Positions 2,747 to 64,000 of a DNA stretch of 64,000 nt are shown one piece after another. Both the position numbers and the translations under genes were made by a program. Position 1 is the first letter of the stretch; the number at the start of each line of letters is the position of its first letter. This DNA is from Siphonodentalium dalli (Eukaryota; Mollusca; Scaphopoda; Gadilida; Siphonodentaliidae), in assembly GCA_032622095.1 (NCBI GenBank), contig CP136068.1:57372025-57436024 (forward strand), in the 5' to 3' direction. The notes below the pieces were generated by a model. That model did not search any database and was not told the DNA's origin. It was given only the letters and a program-made list of their open reading frames with translations.

Positions 2747-4077
2747 TGTTTACCCATACCATGTATGGTAAACATAGTGTCGTTGTCCGGATTGACCACT
2801 CGTCGTCCGTCCGTCCGTCCGTCCGTCTGTCTGTCTGTCCGTCCGTAGACACTTTACGTGTAATGCGATAACTCAAACATTTTTTACCTGATCAAAACCA
2901 AATTTTGTATATGGGGTTTTCAGCCCAAAATACAGATCGAGTTCGAATATGGGTTTGATCCGACTTGTTATTACGGAGTTATGGCCCTTTTTCGACTTAG
3001 AATTAATGAATTCTGCCGTAACTCAAACATTTTTTATCTGATCGGAACCAAATTTGGTATGTGAGTTTCTCGACCCAAAATACAGATCGAGTTCGAATAT
3101 GGGTTTGATCGGAGTTTTTTTTACGGAGTTATGGCCCTTTTTCGACTTAGAATTCATTAATTCTGCCATAACTCAAACATTTTTTATCTGATTGGAACCA
3201 AATTTGGTGTATGAGTTTCTCAGACCAACATACAGATTGATTTCGAATATGGGTTTGATCGGATTTTTTTTAATGGTGTTATGGTCCTTTGACATATGAT
3301 TCACACATACATGTACTTCGATAAATCAACCATTTTTCATCTGATAGGAACCAAATTTGGTATGTGAGTTTCTCAACTCAAAATACAGAACGAGTTTGAA
3401 TATGGGTTAGATCCAATTTGTTATACCAGAGATATGGCCCTTTTTAAACTAAGAATTATCCAGATTATAACCCAAGTAACTTACAATTAATGAATACCTG
3501 CTTCTCTGTGAGCAAGATAAAAGACAATATAGTTTATTGCTTTGAGAGTTATTTATAGCCCTCATATGTTAGGTCTGTATAAGAGACACAGTGAATTATT
3601 GGATAAATTGATTTAGCTATCTTTTTAACCACAACTTAGCCAGGTGAATTTATTTAACTAGACCAATGGAGCTCTCTAAGTCCTTGGATGATGGGACTAC
3701 ATTGGATCAAACAGGGCAGAGATAGGTGATTTAACCCCTTTTACCCATTCCATGTCTTTTAACCTTTTCCATTAAATAAATAATTATATTATTTTGATAT
3801 CTCACATGGCAATTTGCAACAACATGAATAGAACTGCTCACACTATGATAGTGGTGACAGGCTCTAGAGTTTAGATGTTATATTAACCCTTCTATATTGA
3901 CTCATACATTCCAATAATTTGTGTTATTACTGGTTATTATGTACATTTGTCATATACTACTTTAGATCATAACAGTATACTCTATAATTCAACATTAAAA
4001 GATTATGATTCTGATCTTAACAATTTACTATCGCCAAGGGATGGGTTAAACATCTGCCGATCGTGATCGGCCTCTCG
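2747..4077 (+). mobile_element. Nested tandem-repeat element, family A (interrupts the RT)
   Basis: The RT codons on each side (LLFL before, IYIND after) meet perfectly if 2747-4077 plus one TTA is removed, so the ends are fixed at a 3-bp TTA duplication (2744-2746 and 4078-4080). The 5' end begins TGTTTACCCATACC and forms a hairpin with TATGGTAAACA. A (TCCG/TCTG)n tract at 2807-2847 follows, then about four 145-bp monomers with 'accaaatttggtatg' and 'gttatggccctttttcgac' (2865-3480). The 3' end carries GGGTTAAACATC, inverted relative to the 5' end, then a GCCGATCGTGATCGGC hairpin and CTCTCG. It has no coding capacity. Subterminal inverted repeats plus a 3' hairpin suggest a Helentron-type non-autonomous element. 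Confidence 0.75.
2807..2847 (+). repeat. (TCCG)n/(TCTG)n microsatellite
   Basis: Tandem GTCC and GTCT tetramers directly behind the 5' hairpin of the nested family A element. Similar tracts occupy the same position in the other families in the window. Confidence 0.9.
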
Positions 4078-5282
4078 TTAATTTATATTAATGATATAAC
4101 CGAAAATATACGGTGCAACATTCGTCTATTTGCAGATGATACCTCTCTATTTCTCACTATCGAAGACCCCACTATGGCCGCAAAACTAATCAACGATGAC
4201 CTCGACACTCTCATGTGTTGGGCATCAGAATGGCTTGTAAAATTCAATCCCCTGAAAACTGAAGCTCTCTTAATATCCAGGAAAGAAACACCAGTATACC
4301 ACCCACCTCTGACCATGGGAGCCGCGACAATTGTTGAGGTTGACAGCCATAAACACCTGGGACTTACTTTCGACAACATGGGCTCATGGGGAATCCACAT
4401 CAAATCTATGCTTGATAAAGTGTGGAGTCGAGTAAACTTAGTACGTAAACATAGATACAGGCTAAGCAGAGTAACGCTTGAAAAAATACATTACACATTT
4501 GTCCGACCAATACGGAATATGCCTCCCCTGTTTGGGATAACTGCCCTAATTATCTTAGTGATGACATTGAAAAGGTTCAGTACGAAATGGCCCGAATAGT
4601 AACAGGTGCAACCATCAGTACGAGTAACGAGCGTCTTTTATCAGAAACTGGCTGGGAACTCCTCTCCTCACGTCGTAGAAAACACAAGCTATGTCAATTT
4701 TTTAAAATGATACGTGGAACTGCTCCATCAATTTTAAGAAATTATGTACGACCAATCCAGGCAAATAATTCCAGATACAACTTCAGATTTGAACATATAA
4801 GACTACCCTCGAATATTAACTATGACTATTATATGGAATCTTTCTTACCATCTGCAATTACTGAATGGAACAAACTGCCGGAAACTACAAAGGGCACCAG
4901 CACAATCGAAGATTTCAAAAAGAAACTCAACAGTGACAATATACGTCCACCTGCGTATTTTTATCATAGTAAAAGCCGTAAATCTCATATCCTTCATACC
5001 CGGTTAAGACTGAACTGCAGCCACCTGAGTTCTGACCTGACAGACAATCATGTAAAACAATTCCCCTTCTGTTTATGTGGGGAACTCGAGACAACTTACC
5101 ACTATCTCTTTGAGTGTACATTTTATCAAGAGGCCAGACGGGAACTATATGATTCACTACCCAATGTTGTCCTATCTGAGAATACTCTATTACGGGGATC
5201 AAGGGAGCTTAGTCTTCGTGAAAACAAACAAATATTTAATGCAGTACAGACATATATTATGAAAACAAAAAGATTCCCATGA
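4078..5282 (+). pseudogene. RT C-terminal half and Cys/His tail of the retrotransposon
   Basis: Coding resumes with IYINDI and reaches the catalytic motif C, FADD, at 4129-4140. This is followed by the KTEALL and HKHLGLTFD motifs typical of the RT thumb/connection. A frame change near 4510 shifts the reading to the frame of 4587-5282, so the two open frames overlap only by chance. The last part holds a CLCGE-x5-H-x5-C Cys/His cluster near 5071-5118, as in the C-terminal region of I/Jockey/CR1 elements. The stop codon is at 5280-5282. The segment is non-functional because of the frame break and the upstream insertion. Confidence 0.85.
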
Positions 5283-6112
5283 TTTGAACGAGTAACAAAT
5301 TGCTTTGGATTCCGGTCGCGTTATGCGGCAGCAAGATATTCCCCAGAATATATGTAGCACTAAATGCCTTCCGATAACGATTCCTTTGTATATTACTTAC
5401 TTGCTATTAGCCTGCACATACATGAAACGATTCCACATGAGGGATGCTCCGAAATTCACAGTGAACACCCTTGAAATGGGAATTGTCCTGTTTCGGGTTA
5501 GTGCTGCTGAATACGTACTTGTTCTCACGAAATATAGATATTCCACGACAATACTTTGATTATGAACACTCGTAGCCGTGTGTGTCTGTTCAATTGATTA
5601 CTTTTTGACGAATGGAACCAGTTAACAGCCAACGTGATTGACCCCCTCCCATGGCTTCTGACGCATGCAACTTACTATAGACGAGCATAAATGTAACCAC
5701 GCAACAACTCAATTATTCCCCACCGCTGTCATCATTTCACGATTCATCTGTCTTCTGCTCTCTCACCCTCTTGCTCTCTCTCTATTTTCTCTCTCTCTCT
5801 CTCTCTCCCCCCTCTCTCCCTACATCATGCTATTCCTAACACTATATTCTTCCTTTTTCCATCCCTAACTCAAATGTAGTTATATATCTCTACTCCTCCT
5901 AAACCATTATTTCATTCCCTTCCCGTCTGATCGATACCCTCCCTCACTTATTGAGGAAGGGACATGTCGCCAAAGAGGAGAAGACTTCATATAAGCCCTC
6001 GGGCTTGTTGTCTGATCCTCATTTCCAAAATTAACTCTTATATGTTGTATATTTATGTCATCTGTGTATTATGTCAATTATTTGGTTTGGAAATAAAAAT
6101 ATGTTTACACTA
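5283..6112 (+). other. 3' untranslated tail of the retrotransposon
   Basis: Non-coding sequence after the ORF stop. It contains a (CT)n tract at about 5764-5818, a GAGG-rich stretch and 'aataaaaatatg' at 6092-6103, which is a plausible 3' end. The exact end is inferred from where similarity to the next repeat begins at about 6118. Confidence 0.5.
5764..5818 (+). repeat. (CT)n microsatellite
   Basis: Nearly pure CT/CTCC dinucleotide run, interrupted by short T and C tracts. Confidence 0.85.
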
Positions 6113-6117
6113 ATTTA

Positions 6118-6446
6118 GTGATGCTACCCCGTATAGCAGGATAGCAACACCAAATACACCCTCCAGGGACCTAATTCTGCTTAGGTCTCATCTTCTGGGA
6201 AGTATCTAGAGTATCAAATTGACATTTCTTTAGTTACCTTTTCCCTTCTGTTTCTATATCCCCGCATAATTGAAGTGCCCAATGGGTGCATATCACCAAC
6301 TTCAACTGGAGAACTTCAATCTGTTTCAATGTTTCTCATGGCAGTTGAGGCCTAATCAGAATGAGGTCCACAGAGGGTGAATTCGGTGATGCTAGCCCAC
6401 CTTGCGGATTAGCTTATTAAATTCACCCTTGGGGACCTCATTCGGC
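6118..6446. repeat. Fold-back repeat with GAATGAGGTCC arms
   Basis: The arm at 6359-6383 (gaatgaggtccacagagggt...) pairs with 6420-6443 (...acccttggggacctcattc) around a 36-bp loop. A diverged second copy of the right half lies at 6118-6175 ('gtgatgctaccccg...ccctccagggacctaattc'). Small non-coding inverted repeat of MITE type. No target duplication identified. Confidence 0.6.
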
Positions 6447-6647
6447 AAATGTCAGACACAATAAATTCAGGCTTGGCTGTTCCCATATTATTTTCTTAAC
6501 ACCACTTATCTAGGTGAAATCCTACTTTGATTTTTCAAAGAAAAATTGGATGTTATATTGAATTGTAATACGACCTTGCCTAAACCTACATACAAGGCAC
6601 GTCCTGATTGGTCGGTATGCTGTATTCCTATGGAGACACGACCGTCC

Positions 6648-6689
6648 TTTTGTGGTACAATTCTAGATATTCTGAATTGTACCACAAAA
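6648..6689. repeat. Perfect 16-bp hairpin
   Basis: TTTTGTGGTACAATTC at 6648-6663 is followed, after a 10-nt loop, by its exact reverse complement at 6674-6689. Confidence 0.85.
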
Positions 6690-6839
6690 ATGTCAACGCA
6701 TCAAACTTTCAGAAGTCAAACCACAAGGGCATTGGTTAATGTCATGTTATAGACTGAAGAAAGAGACATATAATGACTACCTACTGTACATAGTATACTG
6801 AATTTTATTTAAGATAGAACAAAAATAAGTCTTAACTGA

Positions 6840-6998
6840 AATTGTTTTGCCAGAAAGGCAATGAAAAGGGGTCGCCGTTCAATAGTGACATCATGTTTGA
6901 CGTTACAGTTCTAACTGTTTGGTGGAAAATCATACCACGCAGAGCTAGAAACTGGGCTATTATATAGCAGGTCACTACAATTTCGACCAAAATATACA
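6840..6998 (+). repeat. Interspersed repeat, copy 1 (second copy at 37090-37290)
   Basis: Shares 'aatagtgac.tcatg.ttgacgtta', 'aatcataccacgcaga' and 'gctattatatagc...cactacaatttcga' with 37130-37262, in the same orientation. The shared block explains the short open frame at 37106-37294, so that frame is repeat-derived and not a gene. Confidence 0.65.
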
Positions 6999-7172
6999 GT
7001 CAAATTACAAAAGAAATAAATAAACTGCGCATCGGCGTGTTTAGTAGAATTTTACCACAGAAACTGATTGTAGGACTCCGCTTCACGTCATCCTACAATC
7101 AGTTTCTTTGTGGTCAAATTCTACTATACACACCGATGCGCAGTGTACTTATTTCTTAATTGAATTTGTCTG
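6999..7172. repeat. Large imperfect palindrome (fold-back element)
   Basis: Left arm at about 6999-7074 (…ctgcgcatcggcgtgt…accacagaaactgattgtagga). The right arm at 7091-7172 is its reverse complement with a few mismatches. The loop is about 16 nt. The arms are about 75 bp, long for a simple hairpin and typical of a fold-back MITE. Confidence 0.8.
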
Positions 7173-7239
7173 TCTGTCATTCCATATGTCTGTCTGTCGG
7201 GATGCCTATCCATCAACAATTGTTTTATTCTTCAGATCA

Positions 7240-7500
7240 ATATTAAAGATCGAATGGGTTGATATTTTTTGTGTGGATGTTCCCTTGGTGACTCACAATC
7301 AGATTTGTTCAAATAAGTTCATCAAATAGGTGTGAAGCCAGGGCTATAACTCTTTCCCTCCATAGTAATTCTTAAAACAATTTCTTCTCAAGAACCATTG
7401 GGCCTATTTAGCTTATATTTTGGTATGGAGGGTCCTTTTTTAGGAAACTTTTGAGGGAAATCAATTAACTTCAACTCTTAAATCAACCCTTTGAAATTAC
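7240..7500 (+). repeat. Interspersed repeat (second copy 47524-47770)
   Basis: Shares 'gatgttccc.tgg.tgactcac', 'gaagccagggc.ataactc' and 'atttagcttatatttt' with 47524-47690. Non-coding. The same phrase recurs in 47700-47765, so the family is itself tandemly built. Confidence 0.7.
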
Positions 7501-9903: not shown

Positions 9904-10312
9904 GTGAGTCCAACCCAAACGCCTATCCACTGTGGTAATTATATGCAGGTTAGAAATACAGTCATGTGCATTCTTACATTACCAATTCTCATCACTTTAT
10001 TTGGCAACAATAATGGTATTCACAATTACTCTCTATGTATGTGAATTCATTCCTGGTCAAACTTGAGAACCATTGCATATTACCACTCGACACGTAATAC
10101 CGCCGAACACCTGTTGATGTAATTTGACATTGCCACCCTACTCCCAAATGTTTAAATTAAAAATATCATGTAAAATTCTTTAATAGGTCTCCTGCAACCA
10201 CGTTTTGCACAAAAAATCTCATTTGGGAGGAATTTTTAATTGTTGTTAAGTTCATACTTGTAGTCAGACAATCTTTTTATAGATCTGAATATGTGCGTCT
10301 TTGCTAATTACA

Positions 10313-10721
10313 CCCCCCCCCCGCAACGAAGTTAGGGGGGGGGGGGTATATTGGAGTCAGTTTGTCCGTCCATCGTTGTTCTCAGTCGTTTTTTGATCAA
10401 TTGTTGTGAAACTTGGCACAGACATCAACCACCATGGGAACCTGTGCACCTGCGATTATGACGTCTGTCAGACTTTTTTTCGTGGAGTTATCCATCCTTT
10501 TTTTTCGACTTAGAAACTTTTCGCAACATGTATACTTTTGTCCGAGCTTTTATTCCTACATTTTTCGGTCAATAGGTTTAAGATTAGGGTTATGGTTGTA
10601 TACCTGCAATGGGAACTGTTATTTTATTATTTTAACTAAATGTTTACTGACATGTGAAACATCTTAGTATTTTAAAAACAGGGGGGTATCCGTAGTCCCA
10701 TTGGGACAGTCACACCTCTAG
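10313..10721 (+). mobile_element. Tandem-repeat-type element, family B
   Basis: A C10 run at 10313-10322 and a G12 run at 10335-10346 form the 5' hairpin. TTTGTCCGTCCATC (10360-10373) follows, then a monomer with 'gtggagttatccatcctttt…cgacttag' at 10483-10515. Near the 3' end GGGGGGTAT (10681-10689) is inverted relative to the 5' poly-C, followed by the hairpin GTCCCATTGGGAC (10695-10707). Only one monomer is present. The layout matches families A and C, although the terminal sequences are unrelated. Confidence 0.6.
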
Positions 10722-10985
10722 TTTATACCTGGATTTTCCTGTGTTCTGATACTATCCTGTCGCAAATAATTTGTTATTTTAATGATAACAAACATGATAC
10801 TTACTCGAGTTTTGATGCCGTACACATCACGGCGATGCCTCATCATCATGTTAAAGAGATAATTAACTCTTTAACACTCAAATGGTTTTCTAGCGCAACG
10901 ACTCAATGACGTGATTTGACGTGTCCACCTATTCCTTAATGACGTGATTTGACGTGTTGGTTTTCATGGCAAGTTACCCATTTAT

Positions 10986-12048
10986 TAGCTCAACTTTACT
11001 TTGTAAAGTTTGAGCTATTGCCATGGCTTGGTATCCGTCGTGTGTGTGTGTGCGTGATTCGTCAACAATTTCCTTTAGCATGGGCTACAGTTCGTACCTT
11101 TGGTCCGATTATTATGAAATTTTTCATGGATGTTGACATTGACATATAGATGGGAACGAGTCATTTTGGGGTCATTCGGAAAAAAAACATGGCCACTGGC
11201 AGCCATCTTAGATTTTACTCTTTGCATGACTAAATCCTTTAGCACGGGCTACAGGTCATACCTTTGGTCAGATCATCATGAAATTTGTCATGGGAGATGG
11301 GAACGAGTCATTTTGGGGTCATTTGGCCAAAAAACATGGCCGCCAGCAGCCATCTTTGAATTACTCTTTGTATGACTAAATCCTTTAGCACAGGCTACAG
11401 ATTGTACCTTTAGTCTGATCATCATAAAATTTGTCATGGCTGTTGAAATTGGAATATAGATGGGAACGAGTCATTTTGGGGTCATTCTGACAAAAAACAT
11501 GGCTGCCAGCGGCCATCTTGGATTTCAAAATTCAATCCATTAGCACGGGCTACAGGTCGTACTGTTCATCTGATCATCATAAAATTTGTAGATGGGAACA
11601 AGTAATTTTGGGGTCATTCGGCCAAAAAACATGGCTGCCAGCAGCCATCTTGGATTTTACTCTTTGCATGACTAAATCCTTTGGCATGGGCTACAGGTCG
11701 TACCTTTGGTCAGATCATTATGAAATTTGTCTTGACTTTTGACATTGACATGTAGATGGGAACGAGTTATTTTGGGGTTATTCGGCATTAAAACATGGCT
11801 GCCAGTGGCCATCTTGGATTCTACTCTTTGCATGACTAAAGCTATCAAATGTTTTTGAATTGTTGGAAAACATAACCGCCAGCAACCATCTTAGATTTTA
11901 CTTTTATATACATGTATATATATATCTCTTCATGTTGATAAACTAGTATTAGACATTCAACTTTCCACATTCCTAATCACTCCATCGACAGTAACACATT
12001 AAATTATTCCCTTTCCAAGTTGAGCTACAGTGTCATTGACACTTTCAT
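10986..12048 (+). mobile_element. Tandem-repeat element, family C, copy 1
   Basis: The 5' hairpin is TAGCTCAACTTT-actttg-TAAAGTTTGAGCTA-like (10986-11017), followed by a (TG)n/GTCC-like tract. About six monomers of 150-190 bp follow, each with 'gggctacaggtcgtac', 'gatgggaacgagtcatttt' and 'agccatcttggatttt'. The 3' end has AAGTTGAGCTA (12017-12027), inverted relative to the start, then the hairpin AGTGTCATTGACACT (12029-12043). Short open frames inside are read-through of the repeat and are not genes. Confidence 0.75.
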
Positions 12049-12269
12049 ATAAGTTGTACTTTGGAAAGCCCAAAAGATTCCTCACCACATCAAAGAGAAT
12101 TTGTTGTGGCAAACTTTTATTATTTTGGTACGAAATGGCATAAGTAGCGCTTGGTCACATGCCATCTAGCTATATAATAGCCTGTTGGCATTGAGGCATT
12201 CTCTTTTCATCCTCTTACAAGATTCGAGGGGGGTGACCGAGCAGCGGGGAGGGAAATCTCAATTGGGAG

Positions 12270-26256: not shown

Positions 26257-26384
26257 GTCAGTGTTAGTGGTGGTATACCAGAGACTTACTGATATTAACA
26301 AACCCCCTTCTTCTTTTTCTTTAGGAATGAAATTTTTATTTTTCATGCCTGTCATCACTAACATGTTTTCTTATTTTTTATATA

Positions 26385-26738
26385 TACACCCGTTTGAAAA
26401 AACGGTCGTATTATGTAAATGGGTTGTCCGTCCATCTGTCGTCCGTCCACTTTTGGTTTCCGGATGATAACTTTAGATTGAAACGAGTGAACTGAACCAA
26501 ATTTGGTATGTTAGTTTACCACCCCAAAATACAGATCAAGTTCATGGGTTTCGTCCGCATGATTTTGACTGAGTTATGCCCCTTTTTCGATTTTCGATTT
26601 TACCTGATTTGTGGTTTCCAGATGATAACTTTAGATTGAATCAAGTGAACTGAACCAAATTTGGTATATTAGTTTACCACCCCAAAATACAGATCAAGTT
26701 CGAATATGGGTTTCGTCCGCATGATTTTGACTGAGTTA
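26385..26738 (+). mobile_element. Tandem-repeat element, family D, 5' part
   Basis: Hairpin CCCGTTT-gaaaa-AACGG (26385-26411), then TTGTCCGTCC and GTCGTCCGTCC, then two monomers of about 125 bp with 'gaaccaaatttggtat', 'caccccaaaatacagatcaag' and 'gagttatgcccctttttcg'. The Harbinger-like element splits it at 26739. The remaining fragment continues at 30313-30357 ('tgtccctttttcgacttag…'). A second copy, inverted, is at 61015-61535. Confidence 0.75.
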
Positions 26739-27156
26739 GGGGTCATCTCAAAACTACTATCGGGATCCCGATAGATTTCCCGATAGGATACTGATAGTTA
26801 TATATACAGTTATCGGGAAATTATCGGGAAATGACGCAACGTTTTTCGGGAAAGTTTCTGTATCGGGATTACTCCGGACTTTATCGCGATTTTATGTTTT
26901 ATAGGCCTATCTTTATTATTGATTTAATAGTTTCCTAATATGATAAATCGTTAGTATAAAGTTTTAAAGTATCAGGGGACACGTGTCGTAGAACTATTAT
27001 ATGTTATACTGTGGTGATCAGTGGGTGCTACGTACAATATCGGTATTTTACCTGGACAATACACCCCACCCATCGATCATGCACGCCATGAATATCTACT
27101 CGGTTCTCTACCCTTTAGTCAAGAGTAGGCTATAGAAATTTGAAACATGACATATG

Positions 27157-44051: not shown

Positions 44052-45600
44052 TAGCTCAACTTACTTTGTAAGTTTGAGCTATTGCCATGGTTTGGCGTCC
44101 GTCGTCCGTGTGTCCGTCAACAATTTTCTTTGGCGCGGGCTACAGGTCGTACCTTTGGTCTGATCTTTATGAGATTTGTCATGAATGTTGACATTGACAT
44201 GTAGATGTGAACGAGTCATTTTGGTGTCATTCGGTCAATAAACATGGCTGCTGGCGGCCATCTTGGATTTCAAAATTCAATCCATTGGCGCGGGCTACAG
44301 GTCGTACTGTTCGTCTGATCATCATGAAATTTGTCATGGATGTTAATATTGACATGTAGATGGGAACGAGTCATTTTGGTGTCATTCGGCCAATAAACAT
44401 GGCCGCTGGTGGCCATCTTTGATTTCAAAATTCAATCCATTGGCGCGGGCTACAGGTCGTACTGAAATTTGTCATGGATGTTAATATTGACATGTAGATG
44501 GGAACCAGAGATTTTGGGGTCGTTCGGCCAAAAAACATGGCTGCCAGCAGCCATCTTGGATTTTACTCTTTGCATGACTAAATCCTTTGGCGCGGGCTAC
44601 AGGTCATACCTTTGTTCCGATGTTTATGAAATTTGTCATGAATGTTGCCATTGACATGTAGATGGGAACGAGTCATTTTGGGGTCATTCGGCAAAAATCA
44701 TGGCTGCTGGCGGCCATCTTGGATTTCAAAATTCAATCCATTGGCGCGGGCTACAGGTCTGATCATCATGAAATATGTCAAAGATGTTAATATTGACATG
44801 TAGATGGGAACGAGTTATTTTGGGGTCGTTCGGCCAAAAATACATGGCCGCCAGCAGCCATCTTGGATTTTACTCTTTGCATGACTAAATCCTTTGGCAC
44901 AGGCTACAGGTCGTAACTTTGGTCGGAACTTCATGAAATTTGTCATGGATGTTAACAATGACATGTAGATGGGAACAAGTCCTTTTGGGGTCAATTGGCC
45001 AAAAAAACATGGCCGCCAGCAGCCATCTTGGATTTTACTCTTTGCATGACTAAATCCTTTAGGCACAGGTTAGACATTTCAATTACCACCTTTCCTATTC
45101 GGGTCATTCGGCAAAAATCATGGCTGCTGGCGGCCATCTTGGATTTCAAAATTCAATCCATTGGCGCGGGCTACAGGTCGTACTGTTCGTCTGATCATCA
45201 TGAAATATGTCAAAGATGTTAATATTGACATGTAGATGGGAACGAGTGATTTTGGGGTCGTTCGGCTGTAAAACATGGCTGCCAGCAGCCATCTTGGATT
45301 TTACTCTTTGCATGACTATATCCTTTGCGCGGGCTACAGGTCGTAGCTTTGGTCAGATCTTCATGAAATTTGTCACGGATGTTAACAATGACACGTAGAT
45401 GGGAACGAGTCCTTTTGGGGTCAATTGGCCAAAAAAACATGGCCGCCAGCAGCCATCTTGGATTTTACTCTTTGCATGACTAAATCCTTTAGGCACAGGT
45501 TAGACATTTCAATTACCACCTTTCCTATTCCTCCATTTACTGTCAACCATTAAATTATTCCCCTACCTAAGTTGAGCTACAGTGTCATTGACACTTTCAT
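44052..45600 (+). mobile_element. Tandem-repeat element, family C, copy 2
   Basis: The 5' hairpin TAGCTCAACTT…AAGTTTGAGCTA (44052-44081) is followed by GTCCGTCGTCCGTGTGTCCGTC and about nine 150-185 bp monomers. The 3' AAGTTGAGCTA is at 45569-45579 and the hairpin AGTGTCATTGACACT at 45581-45595. Two monomer types alternate, one with 'ggattttactctttgcatga' and the other with 'ggatttcaaaattcaatcca'. All carry 'gccatctt'. Confidence 0.8.
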
Positions 45601-45629: not shown

Positions 45630-46493
45630 GGCCTAAAAAAAAAAAGATGTTTGTTTCCGCTAACAAGCTGGGAAAAAATAGGGACGGCAGGCAGGCAAAA
45701 CTTTTTTTTTATTAAATATTTTTATTTTTCTACATTTTTAACAATACGTGTATAATACTTGATATGAGCCGACATTATGGACTTCTTAGTCTCAAGGTGG
45801 TCAACCCATGAGATAATATAGAAACAAGAAACTCAGATTCAAAGTTAAAGATGATATATATTTCTTTCTTCATAAGAATATCAAATGCATTCTGCTGTGT
45901 GGTGATTTCCCTAGTTCCATACAGTATTATGTTCGATCTGTTGTTCCACAATCTCTCTATCACCGCAAACAAACTCGATATGGTTTATGTTGAATACTGA
46001 CAACTCCTTAACTTTCATTTCAACATTTATGTTGAATGGCGCCGACTCGGCCGATGTACAACACCTCACTTTAACCTTACTGAAGTCAGTCTTATCCGGG
46101 TGGATTAAAAAGAAGAGTTCTTCAATTTTGGCTTCGTTGTCTATCGATCTGATCTCTTTTTTGCTTCCACCATGGACACATTCATCCAGATAGATAGCCA
46201 CAACAACGTGCTGGCCTACGGAGGTAGCCATTGTTGCTGTGTGAATTCTGTTTACTTTCTAAAGCACCGGCTGTTTTCAATGGGAGATACGTATCTATTT
46301 ATAGTATGTGGGTATTTCCACTGGAAGCGACCGCCGTACTTTTATCTCTGTTAAATGTGTGAAACATTCACAGATACCATCATTTTCTAAAAGTCAGCAG
46401 TCAGTTTTTCTATCGCAATAAAAAGTTTAGACTCGGTGCTTTTAAATAGGGTCGGTCGGGTTAGCGGAAACAAACGTCTTTTTTTTTTAGGCC
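45630..46493. mobile_element. 864-bp TAA-flanked inverted-repeat element carrying an ORF
   Basis: TAA at 45627-45629 and 46494-46496 flanks ends beginning GGCCTAAAAAAAAA and continuing GTTTGTTTCCGCTAAC, inverted at 46457-46493 (…gttagcggaaacaaac…). A TAA target suggests PIF/Harbinger or ISL2EU. It sits between two family C arrays. Confidence 0.7.
45911..46231 (-). CDS. 106-codon ORF inside the TAA-flanked element
   Basis: Begins MATSVGQHVVVAIYLDECVH about 260 bp inside the element's right end and reads with protein-like composition through FFLIHPDKTDFSKVKVRC and ending in NHIEFVCGDREIVEQQ. Not recognised. It could be the first exon of a transposase-associated protein or a captured host exon. 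The stop comes within the element. Confidence 0.35.
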   Translation of the reverse strand: MATSVGQHVVVAIYLDECVHGGSKKEIRSIDNEAKIEELFFLIHPDKTDFSKVKVRCCTSAESAPFNINVEMKVKELSVFNINHIEFVCGDREIVEQQIEHNTVWN

Positions 46494-46639: not shown

Positions 46640-47522
46640 CTGGACGGTGCAATTCTTTACACGGGCTACAGGTCGTACCTTTAGTCTGATCATCATAGAA
46701 TTTGTCATGGGTGTTAATATTGACATGTAGATGGGAATGAGTCATTTTGGGGTCATTCGGCCAAAAAACATAGCTGCTGGTGGCCATCTTGGATTTCAAA
46801 TTTGAATCCATTGGCGCGGTCTGCAGACCGCACTGTTTGTCTGATCATCATAAAATTTGTCATGAATGTTGACATGGCCACCAGCAGTCATCTTGGATTT
46901 TACTCTTTGTATGACTAAATCCTTTAGCACGGGCTACAGGTCGTACCTTTAGTCTGATCATCATCAAATTTGTCATGGATGTTAATATTGACATGTAGAT
47001 GGGAACGAGTCATTTTGGGGTCATTCGTCATGAAATTTGTTATGGCTGTTGAAATTGGAATGTAGATGGGAAAGAGTCATTTTGGGGCCTCTTTGATTTC
47101 AAAATTCAATGCATTAGCACGGGCTACATGTCGTACTGTTCGTCTGATCATCATAAAATTTGTCATCGATGTTAATAATGACATATAGATGGGAACGAGT
47201 CATTTTGGGGTCATTCGGCCAAAATACTTGGCCGCCAGCAGCCATCTTGGATTTTACTCTTTGTATGACTAAATTCAATGCATTAGCATGGGGCTACAGG
47301 TCGTACCTTTAGTTTGATCATCATAAAATTTGTCATGGATGTTAATAATGACATATAGATGAGAACGAGTGATTTGGCCAAAAAACATGACCGCCAGCAG
47401 CCATCTTGGATTTTACTCTGTTTGACTAAATCCTTTACTGCTCATTTTTTACACTCCTTTTTAATCTCTCTATTCATTGCTCATCACAAAAAAATTACCT
47501 TCTTGTCATTGACACTTTCATA
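46640..47522 (+). mobile_element. Tandem-repeat element, family C, copy 3 (5'-truncated)
   Basis: About five monomers starting mid-unit, with 'ggctacaggtcgtacctttag' and 'gccatcttggatttt'. The 3' end is a partial hairpin (TGTCATTGACACTTTCA, 47503-47520). No 5' hairpin. Confidence 0.7.
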
Positions 47523-54180: not shown

Positions 54181-54242
54181 TATAACAAGTAAAATTATAA
54201 ATAAAAAATATTTTAAATCAAAACGAGCACGCCACTTTTTAA

Positions 54243-56961
54243 CGAGAGGGGCCGATCACAATCGGCAGATGTTTAACCCATACCTTCTACCATACCAACT
54301 CAATCTGGACTGAATATACGCCTGTACACATCATGTGGAGATGATTGGAAAGATATATTAAGGGGTTTCCATCATTTGCTTGTATACGTATAAATATGAG
54401 ACTGATCAAATACAAGTATTGCTTTGGATAGAATGTTTTCATGTTAAGGTTATAGGTAGGGTTAAAACCGATAAATCAATACCAAGGTCTCTACAGGTGA
54501 AAAGTGTGTCATGATTAATCTGGATGTGAATTGTGAGAGTGATCAGGTGAAAAATATTTGACTTATCACATTGAATAGTATGGGTCTTCGGAACAGGGTT
54601 AATATGTGTGTTTAATATTTTGAGGCAAATCAACCAGCTATACAGGTCAGGAGTGTGTCATCATAAACTTTGCCATGAATTATAAACACAATCTGATGGC
54701 AACTATTTGAGTTATCAAATCAGATATCAAGTGTATGGTCGCTGGAATGGGTTAATATTCACAAAAATATTAAATCCACTGATCAATACAAAATAGTTCT
54801 TAAAAAGCATGTGACTGGTCCCGTGTGATAAGTCAATGCCATAGAATACCCTGTGTTTACAAAAGAGGTCAAAATGTACTGCTACAAATATGGTCCATCC
54901 CTTGTCCAAACACAAGGTTGCAAGCTTATTCATTTATTGACATTAAAGCATGTGCACTTGAGTGATTTTCAAAACAAGGCATCACCTATAATCTATAAGA
55001 ATATTCAATTAGTGTCTTTAAAAATTGAGTGTTCATTAACTAATGAACCTGATTCAACAAGAGGGTTCATTTAATATTGTTCCGCTCAACTCAAACAATA
55101 GTCATGTCGATTAATCTGCCTGTTACCCATTGCATAGATAAATCATATTGGCTACCCATTGCATAGATAAATCATTTTGGCTATCAGCCATTATTTTAAT
55201 TTAATATTCAATACAAAAACCATACAAGTGAATAGTGTGCAAAGATAACCCTAGATATGAGATATGAGGAAGAACCCAAGTACATTATAACATGTGTCTA
55301 TGGGAACCTTGGAAAGGGTTAATTATTATATAGGTGAGGGGTCCCTTATCCAAAACCCTGTAATGAAATTTCAAGAGAATAGGAGAAACAAGAGTCTCAT
55401 GCCATTAATCAAATTTGACATATATCATAAACAATTAGCCAGCCACCAGTGCTGTTTATCTTTTTCTCCATCTAGACAGTGGCCAGAGCTCTGTGCCATA
55501 TGCATTACTCATTTAATAACAGATTTCATGTGGAATGACAACATGTATAAAATGTACTCTCATATACTCTGGATATTGGATGTTCACATGATAATTTATT
55601 GAGATCATTATATTACAATGCAACTATTGCAGAGTGTTCATTTATAACCCTGGTTCAAGAGTATAAGGGTTAATTAATCAAAACCAAAATCCTTACAGAT
55701 GAATGGTGCTATAAGGAAAACCTAGGTAAAAATTATGAGGTAATTAATCAAAAGAAAAGTATTTGACTTATTGAATCGGATCAATGTGTGTGAAAGGGTA
55801 AATTATACCCTCATCCAATACAAGAGATGGACTGTCGTCCGGTGCATACCCCCTTGTGGCATACCGCCTAGTGTGGGCATATCTATAACTTATGACTGCT
55901 ATACTCAGACAGATGGACCCAAAAATCAGCATTTTCATATAAAAAAAAATGAATAACTATAGAACAAAAAACCAAAACAAAACAGTTGAATGTGCCATTA
56001 AATTTCCTCATAGTGGTGAACATCCATACAAAATTTCATTGAGATCTGAGCATTACTGTTCAAGTTATGACCTGAACAGACATCGGATGGACCAAACAGC
56101 AAACATTTCCAGATAAACAAAGATCAATAACTCTAGAATGGAAAAGCCAAACAGAACAATGGAACCCTCTATTGAATGTCCTCATAGTAGTAAACATCCA
56201 TACCAAATTTCATTGAGATCCCAGCACAACTGTTGAAGTTTCGACATGAACAGACACCAGACGGACCAAAAAGCCAACATTTCCAGATAAACAAAGATGT
56301 ACAACTCTAGAATGGAAAATCCGAACAAAACGATGGAACCCTCTATTTAATGTCCTCATAGTAGTGAACATCCATACCTAATTTCATTGAGATCCGAGCA
56401 CTACTGTTCAAGTTATGACATGAACAGACATCGGACGGATGGACGCACAGGCGGACGGACGCACAGACAGGTGCAAAACAGTATACCCCCCTTTTAAAAC
56501 TTTTTTTTAAAAAGGGGGTATAATAAATAGGTATGGTGGATTACATGTGTCGTCTGTCATGCGTCTGTTCATATACCTCAGCCATGGTTTATTGGATATC
56601 GATGAAATTTGGTATGCAGGTTTGTCATCACAATTTCCTCTCAAGAGTTATCCCTCTTTGTTTATCTGAAAATATTGGATTTCCATCCATCCGCTCAAAA
56701 ATCTCAATGATGGGTTATCGGATCTCAATGAAATTTAATATGCAGAATTGGAATCAGGAGGGCTTTCAAGAGAGTATTCATTGACATTGTTCCCCTTTTC
56801 TGTTCAAGAGTTATCCCACTTTGTTTATCTGAAAATGATCCATCTGATCCGATAAAAAATACTTGAGTTATTGCGTCGGATAGCAAGTGTCTACAGACAG
56901 ACGAACGATAGATGATTGATCGGACATCGGCATTATGTGTACCATACATGGTATAGGTACA
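54243..56961 (-). mobile_element. Family A-type element, copy 3, with degenerate monomers
   Basis: Starts CGAGAGGGGCCGATCACAAT and GCAGATGTTTAACCCATACC. It ends at 56936-56961 with the hairpin 'tgtaccatacatggtataggtaca', equivalent to the 5' hairpin at 2749-2772. The interior (54430-55760) is made of highly diverged about 170-bp units with 'acaggtga…gtgtcat' and 'aaaatatttgacttat'. At 55846-56522 it is interrupted by a family E array. Confidence 0.6.
55846..56522 (-). mobile_element. Tandem-repeat element, family E
   Basis: Read on the - strand, the 5' hairpin TATACCCCC-tttt…aaaa-GGGGGGTATA (56522-56482) is followed by a GCGTCCGTCC tract (56470-56435) and three about 175-bp monomers with 'tctcaatgaaat(t/a)(a/t)ggtatg' and 'attctagagttgt(a/t)catcttt' (56430-55970). 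'aagggggtat' (55856-55846) is an inverted copy of the start. Further E-type monomers in the opposite sense (56535-56850) make the locus head-to-head about the hairpin. Confidence 0.65.
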
Positions 56962-56980
56962 TATAAAAATCCATCGCTAT

Positions 56981-57168
56981 AGATATCTTATGTTACAAGG
57001 GAGATCACAGAATCAAATAGTTTATCCTAGAATTGTATTATAATTGGAAATTATAGCTTTTACTCGATCGAGTTTTAAGAATCGGTTCAGGTGTTTGTGA
57101 ATTATGACTGTTAGTAGTGAGGAGGTATTTGATTATGTGATCTCCCTTGTAACGTATGATATCTACAG
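56981..57168. repeat. Fold-back MITE, 38-bp arms
   Basis: 'tagatatcttatgttacaag' plus 'ggagatcacagaatcaaata' (56981-57020) and the complement at 57127-57168, with three mismatches. The spacer is about 107 bp. The end word 'tagatatc' suggests a TA target. Confidence 0.8.
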
Positions 57169-57245
57169 CAATGCATTTTTTAAAGTGGCACGCTCGTTTT
57201 AAAGTTAAATATTTTTTTATTTATATTTTTACTCGTTTTAAATGC

Positions 57246-59425
57246 ATGCCCCCATGGTTGGCGATGAAAATATAGTCATGTTAGATATGACCTGAAACAG
57301 TTAATTATGTCTTGGAATTCACTTCGAAGACAGTCTTGTTATATTCAGCAAGTAAACTTCCATCATTCATCGTAACCCTTCCATGACTGGAGCTTCCTGA
57401 AATTTTGCGAAAACCCTATGCCAAAGAATTCTCTTATATATGCGAGTCTCCCATAGGGAGCTCCCATCATGACAGGGTTATATACCACCAAAGTGTAGAT
57501 AATTATCACTTTATTTATCTCATTTATTCTTTCCCAGGTTGTGATTATGAGGAATCTCCATATCTCAAAAACTAATGTTAGTTATAAATCATTTTTGTAT
57601 ATTTCTTCGACCAACATTTACCAAGGAAATAAATGTTATGCTATATTTCAGTTCATATTGTGTTCTACCAATTCTAAGATTTCAAAATTCAAATTGTGCT
57701 GAGAGTTCTGAAGAATTCAATTCATGGAGTTCTTATATAAATATTTGGTATCAAATCAAATTTTCACAACCTTGTGGAAAAATCTGTGTTATGAACCCTG
57801 TTGGGTGGGGCACAGCAAACATCATCTCATGGTCAATAAGTCTTATTGATCTTCCATGTTAATTCAAACTCTAACAGTCACCATGTACACAAACAATAAA
57901 CTTAACAATTAACATTAGTTCAGACCAAGTCTAACACCAGTTATACAAAAGTAAACTTCATGCTGAGATTACAATATAGCCAGCTATAACCGACATATAA
58001 ACAGTAACCATGTAGGTCGACAAATCATTATAGTCCACCTGATAACCCTCCAATAATTATATCCAGTTCCTTTCTAGAATATTTTATTACTGGGTTCCAA
58101 AAGCTAATATGTTTAGATTTGATAATTACGTCGGAATTTAACGGTTTGTGCAGGAAATTCGTCAGAGCAGCACACAATGTTGTGGTAACATCGTTATTAA
58201 GTTCAATAAAATTAATGATATTTCCAAATTCCAAACTACATGCTTTGTCTTGTTTATATACGGAATAATCTCCATTTCCTGATATGGTTAAACATGATAA
58301 ACTGAATAGGGCTGAGCACAAACATATATAAATTTATTTGTTTTTATCTGCACAATCGTATCTATACTGTGTAATAATATCAGGAAATGATGAGTATTTC
58401 TTAAATGAACAAGACCAAGTATTTTGACTAAATGACTATCAATGTGGTTCACCTGATAACCCTATAATAAACAGTAACTACATAGATGTGATATCATTAA
58501 AAAGAATTGTTAATTTGTAAGATTTCCACTTAATAGTCTCTGCAGATTGAGACAGAAAGCTGAGAATGCTACTTAGATATGAAAGACAATTATTCCCTGC
58601 TTTAGCATCAGTGATCAACTAGTATGGGAACTATCAACTAGTATGGGAACCATCACCAGCTATTTTGGTAGTTTCCCTTGTTAACATGTGCGCATTATGT
58701 AGCATGAGATGTCAGTTTTTATATCAATTTATTTTGGTAATGTTGGTAGATTGGCTTTTTCAGCCGAGTTTTCCATCAACATGTTACCTGTCTTATACAT
58801 CGCCTCCATCAGGGGTCACTCTATAATCACTGGACTCGACATTAGTACATGTCCAACATGTATATTTGTTGTGGATGACATATGAAATGGGACAACATGC
58901 CAAGGACAATTCTATTTTTTTTGTCACTTTTCAAGTGGATTACATACGGAATGTGTGTTTTCTGATGTACATTTTATGATAAATAGATCACACTTGGTGC
59001 TGAATTGTGTTTCATAAAAAATTTGAGATTGAAATATACAGGTAATGAACCCTGATAGTATTTTTAACTGTAATAAATATTCATCTGGAAATTAATTTGG
59101 TACCAAAGTGTCACTGTTTAGCACCAATTCCAAAGCAATGAGAACACGGATTTCTATCAATCATTATTGATACTATCTTATTACATATTCAGTTAAAGAT
59201 ACAGGAAATATGAGCGTGGTCTCAAAATTTTCAAGTTATTTCCTGGTCACCGAAAGTCTAATCTCAAATTAAAAAATAAGATAGATCCAAACTGAGAGGA
59301 TCAACCTCTCTTCAAGAGATAAAACAAAACAAGGTGCTCATCACAGCTGACTTGATAGGATTCAGACTCACACAGACACACACACACATCAACAAATGTG
59401 CATCATTAGCGACACACAACACTTA
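57246..59425. other. Intergenic DNA and likely 3' UTR of the kinase gene
   Basis: Nothing recognisable at 57246-58700. Two frames (57575-57862 + and 58321-58028 -) have no known family. Sequence just below 59426 is the 3' side of the - strand kinase gene. TTTATT at 58728-58733 (AATAAA on the - strand) is a possible polyadenylation signal about 690 bp after the stop. (CA)n at 59372-59388. Confidence 0.4.
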
Positions 59426-60607
59426 TCACAAGTTGATACAGGACAGTAAATCATCACACAACTTTGTGTAATGCGTAGCGTCCCCCGATACACGCCGCAC
59501 CTGCAAACCGTTGTAACTCTCTGCTTCACAAACTTCCATCTCCATTTCTACATCACATTTCTGCAACCGAAACATCCTTTCAGAATACTGATAAACTAAT
59601 TCCGAGCTCCGATTGTCCAAAATCCTTTTAATTTCGTTCATAATTTCCTCGACTTTCTTTGATGAAGACAAGTTCACACACAATCCACCAGGTGAAGCAT
59701 TATCTTTGTTTCTGATAGCATCTATGTCTATATTCTCTGGGCATGTTATTTTTGAGAAGTCTATCACATTACTATTGCTATCATCTGTCGTTGGGCAATC
59801 TCTGCTACTATAACCATTAAGTCCGCTGTAGGCATGATTATAATGAACAGAATCATCAACACTTTGAGCACTAGGATGATCATACTGAAGCCCATCAGTT
59901 ATTGTTTCTTTAGATGTGGGATGATTGGGAATTGTGTAATAAAACTGTTGCTGGTCATATGTATCACCTGCAGTGGTTGAAGGAATGTTTGTAAGATTAG
60001 TACAGATTTGATTTCCATAAAAATATAAATTTTGGTTAATACTTTGCTTCGTCGACTGGAATGTGTTGACACTCTTTTGTTTCTTTGGGCTCGGCTTCTC
60101 CGATGATGGCGATGAGTTCCTCTGCTCCGGCGTGAGATCAGTAACATGTCCATGAGCATCAGTAATGCTTATTTGCGGATTTGTGTTGAAATATTTTCCC
60201 TGATTTGTAGCATCACTGACTTCATGCTGTACTTGCATACTATCGTCTTCTCCATCGCTTGACATTATGTCACCCGTGTCACGAGAATCTTCACGAATCA
60301 TATGCAAGTTTTGGAAATTTGGCGGTGAGCTACTCCGTTGAGATTGGATATTTTGATAGAGAGGTGAGAATGGATGTGTTGGCGACTCCTTCTGTTGTGG
60401 TGAGAGGGATGCACCAGATCCTGTCGGACTGACACGCTGGAATGGTGGTGACGGGCTGTTACTGCTACATGGTATTTGCTGCTGTAAGTGAAGCCGCTGC
60501 AGCTGCTGATATAAGTTTCCGGAGTGGATGTCGGGATTACTGGTCGGTGTTTGTGGAGAGTTCGTCAGAGGAGGGGAAGGCACTGGTGAACAAGGCAACT
60601 GAGATTT
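59426..60607 (-). CDS. Terminal exon of an AMPK-related kinase, probably SIK-type, with KA1-like C-terminus
   Basis: The acceptor on the - strand is ttaattttcag|AAATCT (exon from 60607), phase 0. The stop TGA is at 59428-59426. It encodes about 393 residues. The start is Pro/Ser/Gln-rich with LYQQLQRLHLQQQ and SSPPNFQNL, reminiscent of the LLQRLRLQ…SPP linker of SIK3. A low-complexity Ser/Asp region follows. The last about 75 residues, from EEIMNEIKRILDN through VEMEMEVCEAESYNGLQVRR to GDATHYTKLCDDLLSCINL, form a KA1 domain (MARK/MELK/Kin1 type E-x-E-V-C…G-x-R-x-x-x-x-G…Y-x-x-L…L). KA1 domains bind acidic membrane lipids or autoinhibit the kinase. The kinase domain must lie upstream, beyond 64000. 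MARK or MELK relatives are alternatives, since human SIKs are not known to end this way. Confidence 0.75.
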   Translation of the reverse strand, partial: KSQLPCSPVPSPPLTNSPQTPTSNPDIHSGNLYQQLQRLHLQQQIPCSSNSPSPPFQRVSPTGSGASLSPQQKESPTHPFSPLYQNIQSQRSSSPPNFQNLHMIREDSRDTGDIMSSDGEDDSMQVQHEVSDATNQGKYFNTNPQISITDAHGHVTDLTPEQRNSSPSSEKPSPKKQKSVNTFQSTKQSINQNLYFYGNQICTNLTNIPSTTAGDTYDQQQFYYTIPNHPTSKETITDGLQYDHPSAQSVDDSVHYNHAYSGLNGYSSRDCPTTDDSNSNVIDFSKITCPENIDIDAIRNKDNASPGGLCVNLSSSKKVEEIMNEIKRILDNRSSELVYQYSERMFRLQKCDVEMEMEVCEAESYNGLQVRRVSGDATHYTKLCDDLLSCINL

Positions 60608-61014
60608 CTGAAAATTAAATCAGAGAATGATCTTATTCACATCAATTTAATTGTTTGATGATGTATTCCTTGTTCATAAAACATTGCTGTACATTGTTAA
60701 TTAGTTCCTCTCCAGGAAATTAAGTAAACAACATATAGTCGTCAATCACCTCTTTACAGTTGCAAACCAACAAGGGGCATGGCATAATACGCCCATTTCT
60801 GGAGTAGAGTGGGGCAAGGTTTAATTCATTTGTTTGAAACCTTTGACTTAAGACGAAATAATAACAAAAATAAAACACAATAACTTCAAGTGTGGTATTT
60901 TTGACTGAAAAATTCACATACCAATTTTTTTTATCAATCATAAACCTCAAAATATAAACATTTTAAGTTGAAATTAATATACCTTGTTACCAGTGAGAAA
61001 TAACCACATCAACA
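60608..61014 (-). other. Last intron of the kinase gene, unannotated part
   Basis: AT-rich. A 76-codon - strand frame (60950-60720) has no signature. The intron continues at least to the window end through the repeats that follow. Confidence 0.4.
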
Positions 61015-61535
61015 ATCATTAAAATCTAAGTCGAAAAAGGGGCATAACTCAGTCAAAATCATGCAGACGAAACCCATATTTGAACTTGATCTGTATTTTG
61101 GGGTGGTAAACTAATATACCAAATTTGGTTCAGTTCACTTGATTCAATCTAAAGTTATCATCTGGAAACTGCAAATCAGGTAAAATCGAAAATCGAAAAA
61201 GGGACATAACACAGTCAAAATCATGCGGACGAAACCGATATTCGAACTTGATCTGTATTTTAGGGTGGTAAACTAATATACCAAATTTGGTTCAGTTCAT
61301 TTGATTCAATCTAAAGTTATCATCCGGAATCCGCAAATCAGGTAAAATCTAAGTCGAAAAAGGGGCATAACTCAGTCAAAATCATGCGGACAAAACCCAT
61401 ATTCGAACATGATCTGTATTTTGGTTCAGTTCACTCGATTCAATCTAAAGTTATCATCCGGAAACCAAAAGCAACGGACGGACGGACAACTCATTTACAT
61501 AAATACGACCGTTTTTTCAAACGGGCGTATAATAA
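61015..61535 (-). mobile_element. Tandem-repeat element, family D, copy 2
   Basis: Inverted relative to 26385. From high to low coordinates: hairpin 'tacgcccgtttgaaaaaacgg' (61535-61505), TTGTCCGTCCGTCCG (61485-61470) and three about 145-bp monomers with 'gaaccaaatttggtatatta', 'caaaatacagatcaagttcg' and 'gagttatgcccctttttcga'. The last monomer is shortened. Confidence 0.8.
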
Positions 61536-62029
61536 GCGATTGTTATTAAACAACTAGAAAGAATTTGTCATTATTAGACAAAATAAAAGTGTATTCGATA
61601 ATAAATGCATTCAGTTCATCATCTATAGTACCCTTTGGTTTCCAAATTGCTAACGTATTTAAATAGGATAATCACATTAAAGCGGAAGTGAAAGTTTAGT
61701 GTTGGAATTTTGTCGCAGCTACATGTGATTTCGTGGCAACCTCACTATTAAGTTCCCAACAATGAACGATATCTCCAACTGCATATGCACTTTCAGATTG
61801 ATATTTTTCACTGACATGTAATTATGAATAGTACTCTTGGTTTTCTAATAAGATTAATACATAGATTAAAGGCAAACTGTTCATGAATCTTCTTAACATT
61901 TATAAGTTTATGATTCAATTTAATGCCTTTAAACTCTGTAATTACGTTAGGAAACTGAGATTATTCTTTGATCAATCATTTGAATTTATCCATCTCTTGT
62001 AAGCGGAGTATGACTATAATACTAGCAAC
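61536..62029. other. No feature recognised
   Basis: AT-rich intronic DNA between the family D copy and the minisatellite. Confidence 0.5.
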
Positions 62030-63103
62030 CACTATAATCTAACCTACATGGTGAGAATCACCTTAATAAACACAGAGAGATGACTACAGTGTTTAACCAG
62101 TATAACTAACCTTCATGGTGATAATCACCTTAATAAACACCGAGAGATGACTACAGTGTTTAACCAGTATAACTAACCTTCATGGTGATAATCACCTTAA
62201 TAAACACCGAGAGATGACTACAGTGTTTAACCACTATAATCTAACCTACATGGTGAGAATCACCTTAATAAACACCGAGAGATGACTACAGTGTTTAACC
62301 AGTATAACTAACCTTCATGGTGATAATCACCTTAATAAACACCGAGAGATGACTACAGTGTTTAACCAGTATAACTAACCTTCATGGTGATAATCACCTT
62401 AATAAACACCGAGAGATGACTACAGTGTTTAACCACTATAATCTAACCTACATGGTGAGAATCACCTTAATAAACACCGAGAGATGACTACAGTGTTTAA
62501 CCACTATAATCTAACCTACATGGTGAGAATCACCTTAATAAACACCGAGAGATGACTACAGTGTTTAACCAGTATAATCTAACCTACATGGTGAGAATCA
62601 CCTTAATAAACACCGAGAGATGACTACAGTGTTTAACCAGTATAATCTAACCTACATGGTGAGAATCACCTTAATAAACACCGAGAGATGACTACAGTGT
62701 TTAACCACTATAATCTAACCTACATGGTGAGAATCACCTTAATAAACACCGAGAGATGACTACAGTGTTTAACCACTATAATCTAACCTTCATGGTGAGA
62801 ATCACCTTAATAAACACCGAGAGATGACTACAGTGTTTAACCAGTATAATCTAACCTACATGGTGAGAATCACCTTAATAAACACCGAGAGATGACTACA
62901 GTGTTTAACCAGTATAACTAACCTTCATGGTGATAATCACCTTAATAAACACCGAGAGATGACTACAGTGTTTAACCAGTATAACTAACCTTCATGGTGA
63001 TAATCACCTTAATAAACACCGAGAGATGACTACAGTGTTTAACCAGTATAACTAACCTTCATGGTGATAATCACCTTAATAAACACCGAGAGATGACTAC
63101 AGT
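62030..63103 (+). repeat. 67/68-bp minisatellite, 16 copies
   Basis: The unit contains 'taataaacaccgagagatga' and 'ctacagtgtttaacca', with two main versions. Version A reads 'gtataactaaccttcatggt' then 'gataatcacc' (67 bp), version B reads 'ctataatctaacctacatgg' then 'tgagaatcacc' (68 bp). Hybrids (gtataatct…) also occur. The order from 62030 is B A A B A A B B b b B b b A A A, where b are hybrids. Conservation between units is near complete, so the array is young or homogenised. It is not a CRISPR: no unique spacers. Confidence 0.95.
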
Positions 63104-63167
63104 GACATTTACTTGGCATAAGCTGGTTAAAGTGGCATTAATTCACATTGACTTCAAGAAGAATGAA

Positions 63168-64000
63168 AGTGTCAATGACACTGTAGCACAACTTCGAGAG
63201 GTGTTAATGCTATGCTTGTGCAATCATTGGAATGATAAAAGAAGAAGGAAAGTAAATGAAAGTGTCAATGACACTGTAGCTCAACTTAGGAAGGGGAATA
63301 ATTTAATGGTTGACAGTAAATGGAGGAATTAGGAAAGGAGCTAATTGAAATGTCTAAGTAAGACAAAATGTAAATGTGAAGAGAGACCAATACCCCCAAA
63401 ATGACTCGTTCCCATCTACATGTCAATGTCAACATCCATGACAAATTTCATGAAGATCAAACAAACAGATCGGTCTATAACCCATGCTAATGGATTTTGT
63501 AGAAATATTTAGTCATACAAAGAGTAAAATCCAAAATGGCCATTGGTGACCATATTTTTTGGCTGAATGACCCCAAAATGACTCTTTCCCATCATGAGGT
63601 CACCCCAATGATCCATATGAAGTTTGGTGATGATCAGATCAGGGATGTGGTATGACTATGTAGGGTGTGTGAAAGTATTTAGTGATGCAAAGAGTAAAAT
63701 CCAAAATGGCTGACGGCGGCCATGTTTTTTGTTTGGCCAGATGACCCCAAAATGACTCGTTCCCATCTAGAGGTCACCCCGATGATCCATGTGAAGTTTG
63801 GTGATGATCGGATCAGAGATGTGGTCTGTAGGATGTGTCAAAGGATTTAGTGATGCAAAGAGTAAAATCCAAGATGGCCACCAGCGGCCATGTTTTTTGG
63901 CCGAATGATCCTAAAATTACTCGTTCCTATCTACATGTAAATGTTAACATTCATGACAAATTTTATGATGATCAGACGAACAGTACGGCCTGTAGCCCGC
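63168..64000 (-). mobile_element. Tandem-repeat element, family C, copy 4, runs off the window
   Basis: Inverted copy. The 3' hairpin AGTGTCAATGACACT with TGTAGC(T/A)CAACTT occurs twice in tandem (63168-63193 and 63261-63286). Monomers then follow from about 63395 to 64000 with 'atgactcgttcccatctaca' and 'aaaatccaa(a/g)atggcc'. The 5' hairpin lies beyond the window. Confidence 0.75.

Follow-up and report, generated by a model that had tools for sequence, protein, structure and literature searches.

A 64,000-nucleotide stretch of the genome of the scaphopod Siphonodentalium dalli (G000:C8:57372025-57436024, here called the window; the genome comprises 2.2 Gb in 9 contigs) contains five families of structured repeats, A to E, and raises the question of what kind of mobile element they represent, which protein moves them and whether they share one repeat core. 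The initial annotation had proposed a single architecture with unrelated ends, one common monomer core and a possible origin from Helentrons. We read the repeats directly in the window and measured their tandem arrays; the ends of each family were searched genome-wide, and junctions were compared across copies or in small slices of copies. Because these searches score only the best candidates, the resulting copy lists are samples. Monomer similarity was judged against 300 dinucleotide shuffles, and hairpins were judged by the z score of the single-strand DNA fold relative to shuffled sequence.

The repeats were found where the initial annotation had placed them, and the parts followed the same order in all five families: the element opens with a 5' hairpin and a GTCC tract, continues with monomers of about 145-175 bp, in tandem or partial, and closes with the 5' tip repeated in inverted orientation, a second hairpin and a short 3' tip (Table 1). 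The 5' ends start with TATGTTTACCCATACCATGTATGGTAAACATA in A, TATACCCCCC..GCAACGAAGTTA..GGGGGGTATA in B, TTAGCTCAACTTACTTTGTAAGTTTGAGCTA in C, TATACGCCCGTTTGAAAAAACGGTCGTAT in D and TATTATACCCCCTTTTTAAAAAAAAAGGGGGGTATA in E. The annotated 5' hairpin was strong in every family (z of -4.5 in A, -3.9 in B, -5.6 in C, -3.8 in D and -3.4 in E, all far better than shuffles), and the GTCC tracts reported downstream of it were present. Subterminal inverted repeats (subTIRs) of the kind that defines HINEs, with an inverted match to the 5' tip close to the 3' end, were identified as GGTTAAACAT in A, GGGGGGTAT in B, AAGTTGAGCTA in C, GGGCGTATTATG in D and GGGGGTAT in E. For A, B, C and E this agrees with the inverted arm described earlier, with the ends now fixed by genome copies.

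The further 3' hairpins of A, B and C were located at the letters quoted for them (A 4056-4071, B 10695-10707), but such structures are not limited to those families: E also has one (GGACgacaGTCC), and D, for which no 3' structures had been listed, has both an inverted arm and a hairpin (CACGCCccgacGGCGTG). The 3' hairpins are short when taken alone, and only that of A clearly beats shuffles (z -2.95, against -0.4 to -1.7 in B to E); they are supported by their position and by conservation across copies. The 3' tips read CTCTCG in A, CTCTAG in B, CTCTTG in D and E, and CACTTTCA in C, with TT next in nearly all copies read. The description of the ends as unrelated therefore fits C, whose 3' end TTTCA|TT departs from the others, but A, B, D and E share CTCTNG|TT, and the 5' ends of B, D and E all begin TATAC(C/G)CCC.

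Table 1 Elements read as HINEs, and their parts, in the window.
Feature	Position	Strand	Remarks
Family A HINE	2745..4078	+	Genome copies with identical ends; inside a non-LTR retrotransposon reverse-transcriptase frame
A 5' terminal hairpin ATGTTTACCCATACCATGTATGGTAAACAT	2746..2775	+	z -4.5; conserved in 19 copies
A GTCC/GTCT microsatellite	2801..2847	+	Tandem-array measurement
A tandem monomers, about 150 bp x 3.9	2864..3458	+	Homology with D monomers and with the one monomer of the autonomous Helentron
A 3' end	4044..4077	+	Inverted 5' tip GGTTAAACAT; hairpin GCCGATCGTGATCGGC (4056-4071); tip CTCTCG
Family B HINE	10309..10722	+	5' hairpin, GTCC, one core-like unit
B 3' parts	10681-10689; 10695-10707; 10716-10721	+	Inverted 5' tip; hairpin GTCCCATTGGGAC; tip CTCTAG
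Family C HINE, copy 1	10986..12048	+	3' hairpin; tip ends at 12047
Family D HINE, 3'-truncated	26383..26739	+	
Family C HINE, copy 2	44052..45600	+	About 155-bp monomers x 6; 3' tip ends at 45599
Family C copy without 5' end	46650..47520	+	3' tip 47505-47520
Family E HINE	55821..56525	-	5' hairpin 56484-56522; GTCC tract; 174-bp monomers x 3
E 3' parts	55829-55840 (hairpin)	-	Hairpin GGACGACAGTCC; tip CTCTTG
Composite adjoining E	56526..56968	-	5' hairpin resembling that of A, minus strand, tip near 56965
Family D HINE	60771..61531	-	162-bp monomers; inverted 5' tip GGGCGTATTATG 60780-60794; right arm of 3' hairpin lost
Second C 3'-end stub	63164-63189		
Family C copy, 3' part	63257..64000	-	Continues past the window edge

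Family E had been read rightwards from 56522, but it lies on the minus strand, from 56525 to 55821; the earlier reading had followed the near-symmetric 5' hairpin rightwards into the adjoining composite element. Within this composite, E-like monomers run opposite to its A-like 5' hairpin. Array orientation relative to the flanks is reported to be constant in oyster HINEs, so the composite is either a nested insertion or an inverted array. Other features were also observed in the window. A 68-bp tandem array (62027-63104; 16 copies, 97% matches) that is not a HINE monomer stops shortly before the C-family 3'-end stub, and two 29-bp inverted repeats, nearly perfect (97%) and separated by 795 bp, at 45636-46488 beside C copy 2 possibly mark a separate transposon.

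The junctions point to insertion between two Ts. T preceded the 5' tip in 19 of 19 copies of A, 24 of 24 of B, 16 of 16 of C and 19 of 20 of D, against a background T content of 31%. The exact 3' end of A was followed by T at 6030 places in the genome and by another base at 28, and a reversed-pattern control for this end gave zero matches; for the exact 3' end of B the counts were 3265 with TT next and 65 with a non-T base next. These exact-match counts are unaffected by a bias in the C 3' slices, whose T content is skewed toward TTT because the query that selected them extended into the flank. Empty sites of A were recovered within other repeats. One, in many C-like monomers, reads ...GGATTTTA|CTCTTTG..., compared with ...GTATTTTT[A]TTCTCTTTG... 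when filled, and another reads CATTTTT|CAAATT. Essentially only the number of Ts differs between empty and filled sites, and one or two of the Ts at A junctions may be part of the element. The check for insertion-site duplications that had been suggested for these families thus returned T|T junctions in all five and, in A, from which the clear empty sites come, no target duplication, as in HINEs. In the window, A splits the retrotransposon reverse-transcriptase frame, which on reading the sequence resumes beyond the element (GPLLF|LIYINDI).

Full-length copies of A elsewhere in the genome are 95-99% identical with like ends, and identities of 97-99% among copies of A suggest that the family spread recently. 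Exact A 3' ends also occur as pairs on one strand, 112 bp apart (G000:C1:46496239/46496351 and C1:47983208/47983320), which suggests either duplication of 3' ends or A derivatives of very small size. Elements of family B are additionally found head to tail with their tips joined as CTCTAG|TTATACCCC (L068 450-1830; L040 near 1505). Such tip-to-tip arrangements are known of rolling-circle transposons.

Matches to Helitron_like_N are abundant in the genome, and a search with the pre-Rep region of one endonuclease-bearing element returned several divergent Helentron protein lineages, many of whose frames are open over about 2300-2860 aa. Several Helentron lineages thus coexist in this genome. Ends were sought for three of them, H1, H3 and H5, and clear termini matching a family were obtained from H5 only. 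The H5 element at C3:145049687 opens with the 5' tip of A (G000:C3:145044372) and closes with its 3' tip (C3:145056246), 11.9 kb from tip to tip. Its open frame of 2589 aa encodes a Rep-helicase-endonuclease: the frame pieces read matched the Pfam families DUF6570 (2.6e-15), Helitron_like_N (2.1e-12) and Exo_endo_phos (1.1e-7), and the end of the helicase region was identified by eye (L154), so that Rep, helicase and an AP-like endonuclease are joined in one protein, the first and last by Pfam and the helicase end by eye.

When A was aligned with H5, 77 of 81 columns agreed at the 5' end; at the 3' end the two elements were identical in 57 of the last 58 bases and, when the last 80 bases were compared, in 68 of 81 columns. 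By the thresholds used for HINEs (a subTIR of 11 bp or more, and 80% or more over the last 60 bp), the two elements share termini. The 5' hairpin of A is also present in H5, with one inserted base. H5 copies on C1 and C4 match the C3 copy starting exactly at the 5' tip, with unrelated flanks, and the C4 copy is 100% alike until exactly the 3' tip and unrelated past it. A fourth copy, on C6, has the 3' tip of A, and the 3' flanks of H5 start with T. The slices examined of a fifth locus (C8:59266194), of the 5' side of the C6 copy and of the 3' side of the C1 copy contained no ends. The search for a Rep/helicase element with the same ends, proposed in the initial annotation, was therefore successful for family A, with boundaries confirmed by copy comparison, and the H5 protein would be the one that moves A.

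After its GTCC tract, H5 carries one monomer of the A/D type, and this monomer is single in the three copies read at the 5' end. The array of A therefore probably grew from the Helentron's own single unit. Taken together, A and H5 are most simply explained by growth from one monomer to an array, and we infer the direction of the change, from one to many rather than from many to one. The interior of A between the monomers and the 3' end had no clear counterpart in the parts of H5 read.

No Helentron with the termini of B, C, D or E was located among the three lineages examined. The H1 Helentrons (C8:82475900 and C3:300743481) contain A-, C- and D-like HINE remnants in their 5' region, but they yielded no clear ends of their own, and their last shared 3' sequence, CTCAGTTTGTTAA, resembles no family. 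The 5' untranslated region of both H1 copies (L137/L135 and L138/L136) contains D-like pieces together with 3' and 5' ends of the A type, one of these 3' ends being about 200 bp upstream of the start codon. Likewise, H3 has a 3' end of the C type about 16 bp upstream of its start codon (L143:3210-3242). A terminator inside a Helentron could yield short HINE-like copies. The H3 Helentrons (C1:214417332 and C1:169484227) are adjoined by E and C sequences. Their ends could not be defined, because the copies are 98-99.8% alike through the 3' flanks read, probably as a segmental duplication, and the 5' parts read give no clean match. A further class of Helitron_like_N loci, whose frames are open over 1600-1700 aa (L001-L008), contained no HINE sequence in the 3.5 kb examined. 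Such loci are many, and several have identical scores, so this second Helitron group looks recently active too.

Comparison of the monomers did not bear out one core for all the families. Similarity was far above shuffled sequence for A-H5 (z 56), A-D (40) and D-H5 (27), lower for A-B (6.3, with one shuffle tying), C-E (5.1) and B-D (4.4), marginal for A-E and D-E, and at chance for A-C, B-C and C-D. This pairwise pattern indicates two monomer groups, A/D (with B weakly attached) and C/E, rather than one core common to five families. The main likeness across the groups is the block ATGAAATTTGGTATG/CAAATTTGGTATG, which alone does not beat shuffles for most pairs. The initial annotation had held that monomers no more alike than shuffled sequence would refute its proposal; this was the outcome for A-C, B-C and C-D, but not for A-D, A-B, B-D and C-E.

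Taken together, structure and T|T junctions in five families, and for A an autonomous Helentron with matching ends, support the derivation from Helentrons proposed earlier. We consider it very probable that all five are HINEs, non-autonomous Helentrons from the rolling-circle Helitron2/Helentron class that insert between two Ts and on which a Rep-helicase-endonuclease would act. Canonical Helitrons (Helitron1) have 5' TC and 3' CTRR ends and insert at A|T, and were rejected on the ends CTCTNG|TT or TTTCA|TT and the T|T insertion seen here. Inverted repeats near both ends and AT-rich targets would also suit MITEs, short-inverted-repeat elements mobilised by a cut-and-paste (DDE) transposase, the class to which Pearl was first assigned, but the repeats are not symmetric (terminal on the 5' side, subterminal on the 3' side), A leaves clean T|T empty sites without target duplication, and its ends bracket a Rep-helicase-endonuclease gene and not a DDE gene; a MITE origin is contradicted on these grounds and hardly credible. 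Nor is it at all probable that H5 is a stranger to A, flanked by two unrelated A HINEs by chance. Fragments of HINEs are common near or inside other Helentrons in this genome, but the 5' boundary of three H5 copies falls precisely on the A tip and the 3' tip is common to three loci, the sequence beyond being unrelated, and on these copy-against-copy boundaries chance flanking was rejected.

Within the HINE reading, the initial annotation offered two accounts of the differing termini. One autonomous lineage that mobilises all five families through a common 3' tip would explain why A, B, D and E all end in CTCTNG|TT, but several divergent Helentron protein lineages have long open frames, only A was matched to a lineage and the tip of C differs, so that a single source appears improbable. 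The other account, which would add to the HINE reading, has termini exchanged between families by recombination in the GTCC tract or the monomers. It is compatible with A and D, whose monomers of about 160 bp are homologous but whose 5' tips cannot be aligned, as well as with the weak tie of B to that core and the different core of C and E, and some published HINEs pair related flanks with unrelated repeats (PMC7492417). The conserved core that it assumed is, however, two groups, and rapid divergence of tips without exchange fits equally well; TATAC(C/G)CCC and CTCTNG are still shared by three and four families, respectively, and no element with a left end of A and a right end of D was present among the copies read. 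Swapping of termini is therefore a somewhat unlikely addition.

In the accepted model of Helitron transposition, Rep makes a nick at the 5' tip, after which unwinding and copying of the strand proceed until the 3' hairpin, with the tip, brings them to an end; the joined product enters at T|T. From the ends and T|T junctions observed in all families, the empty sites of A and the domains of its partner, a corresponding route can be proposed for the HINEs. A Rep-helicase-endonuclease supplied by autonomous Helentrons would nick the 5' tip, one strand would be displaced or copied through the tandem monomers until the process halted at the 3' hairpin and the tip, which reads CTCTNG in every family but C, and the ends would be joined between two Ts of a T-rich target without duplication. 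As a more tentative extension, it is possible that Helentrons of different protein lineages generally terminate at their 3' end on CTCTNG followed by T, and that the satellite-like arrays of molluscan-type HINEs arise when one unit from the 5' untranslated region of the autonomous Helentron is amplified and retained, with the end modules diverging or being exchanged around it.

The overall plan of these elements is already known from HINEs, including Cg_HINE and Pearl of oysters. Cg_HINE of Crassostrea gigas has a 5' subTIR with its complement, a GTCY/GTCC/GTCK microsatellite, short satellite-like arrays, a 3' subTIR with a palindrome, oligo-T targets, no target duplication and unique pairings of flank and repeat (PMC7492417). 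Likened by description, it differs from family A in that no autonomous partner could be related to it (PMC7492417), whereas A has one with a single monomer. Pearl (Crassostrea virginica, Anadara), DTC84 (Donax) and MgE (Mytilus) are likewise described as central repeats between structured ends; those of Pearl, now regarded as a non-autonomous Helentron, are about 160 bp and number up to six (PMC7492417). The association of HINEs with satellites is also reported in later work on oyster satellites (PMC8268682).

Helentrons with their HINEs and DINE-1 share with the window families subTIRs, a 3' stem-loop, T-flanked insertion, a Rep-helicase fused to an endonuclease and non-autonomous copies with autonomous termini, but the window families additionally have satellite-like arrays and a GTCC tract (PMC4067079). 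The Helitron2-type elements FoHeli3-5 of Fusarium oxysporum, in the parts of the source consulted, have asymmetric inverted repeats, a 5' hairpin and a 3' terminus, CTCCTGT, close to the CTCTNGT found here, and unlike the present families that group is without an endonuclease domain and a 3' hairpin; those parts contain no description of satellite arrays for them (PMC5148889).

The authors of the oyster study considered module exchange, described unique combinations of flank and repeat without a link to an autonomous Helentron, and left the origin of the repeats open between capture from outside and growth from the element's own sequence (PMC7492417). No HINE with such a matched autonomous partner was reported in the later openly accessible literature searched; the matched partner of A with its one monomer and the shared CTCTNG tip are new here. 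Family A and H5 form a matched pair, with thousands of exact 3' ends on one side and an open-frame Helentron with one monomer on the other. Because the two share ends and H5 has a single monomer, the pair favours growth of the array from an intrinsic unit over capture from outside, and it provides a concrete element and partner usable in a transposition assay.
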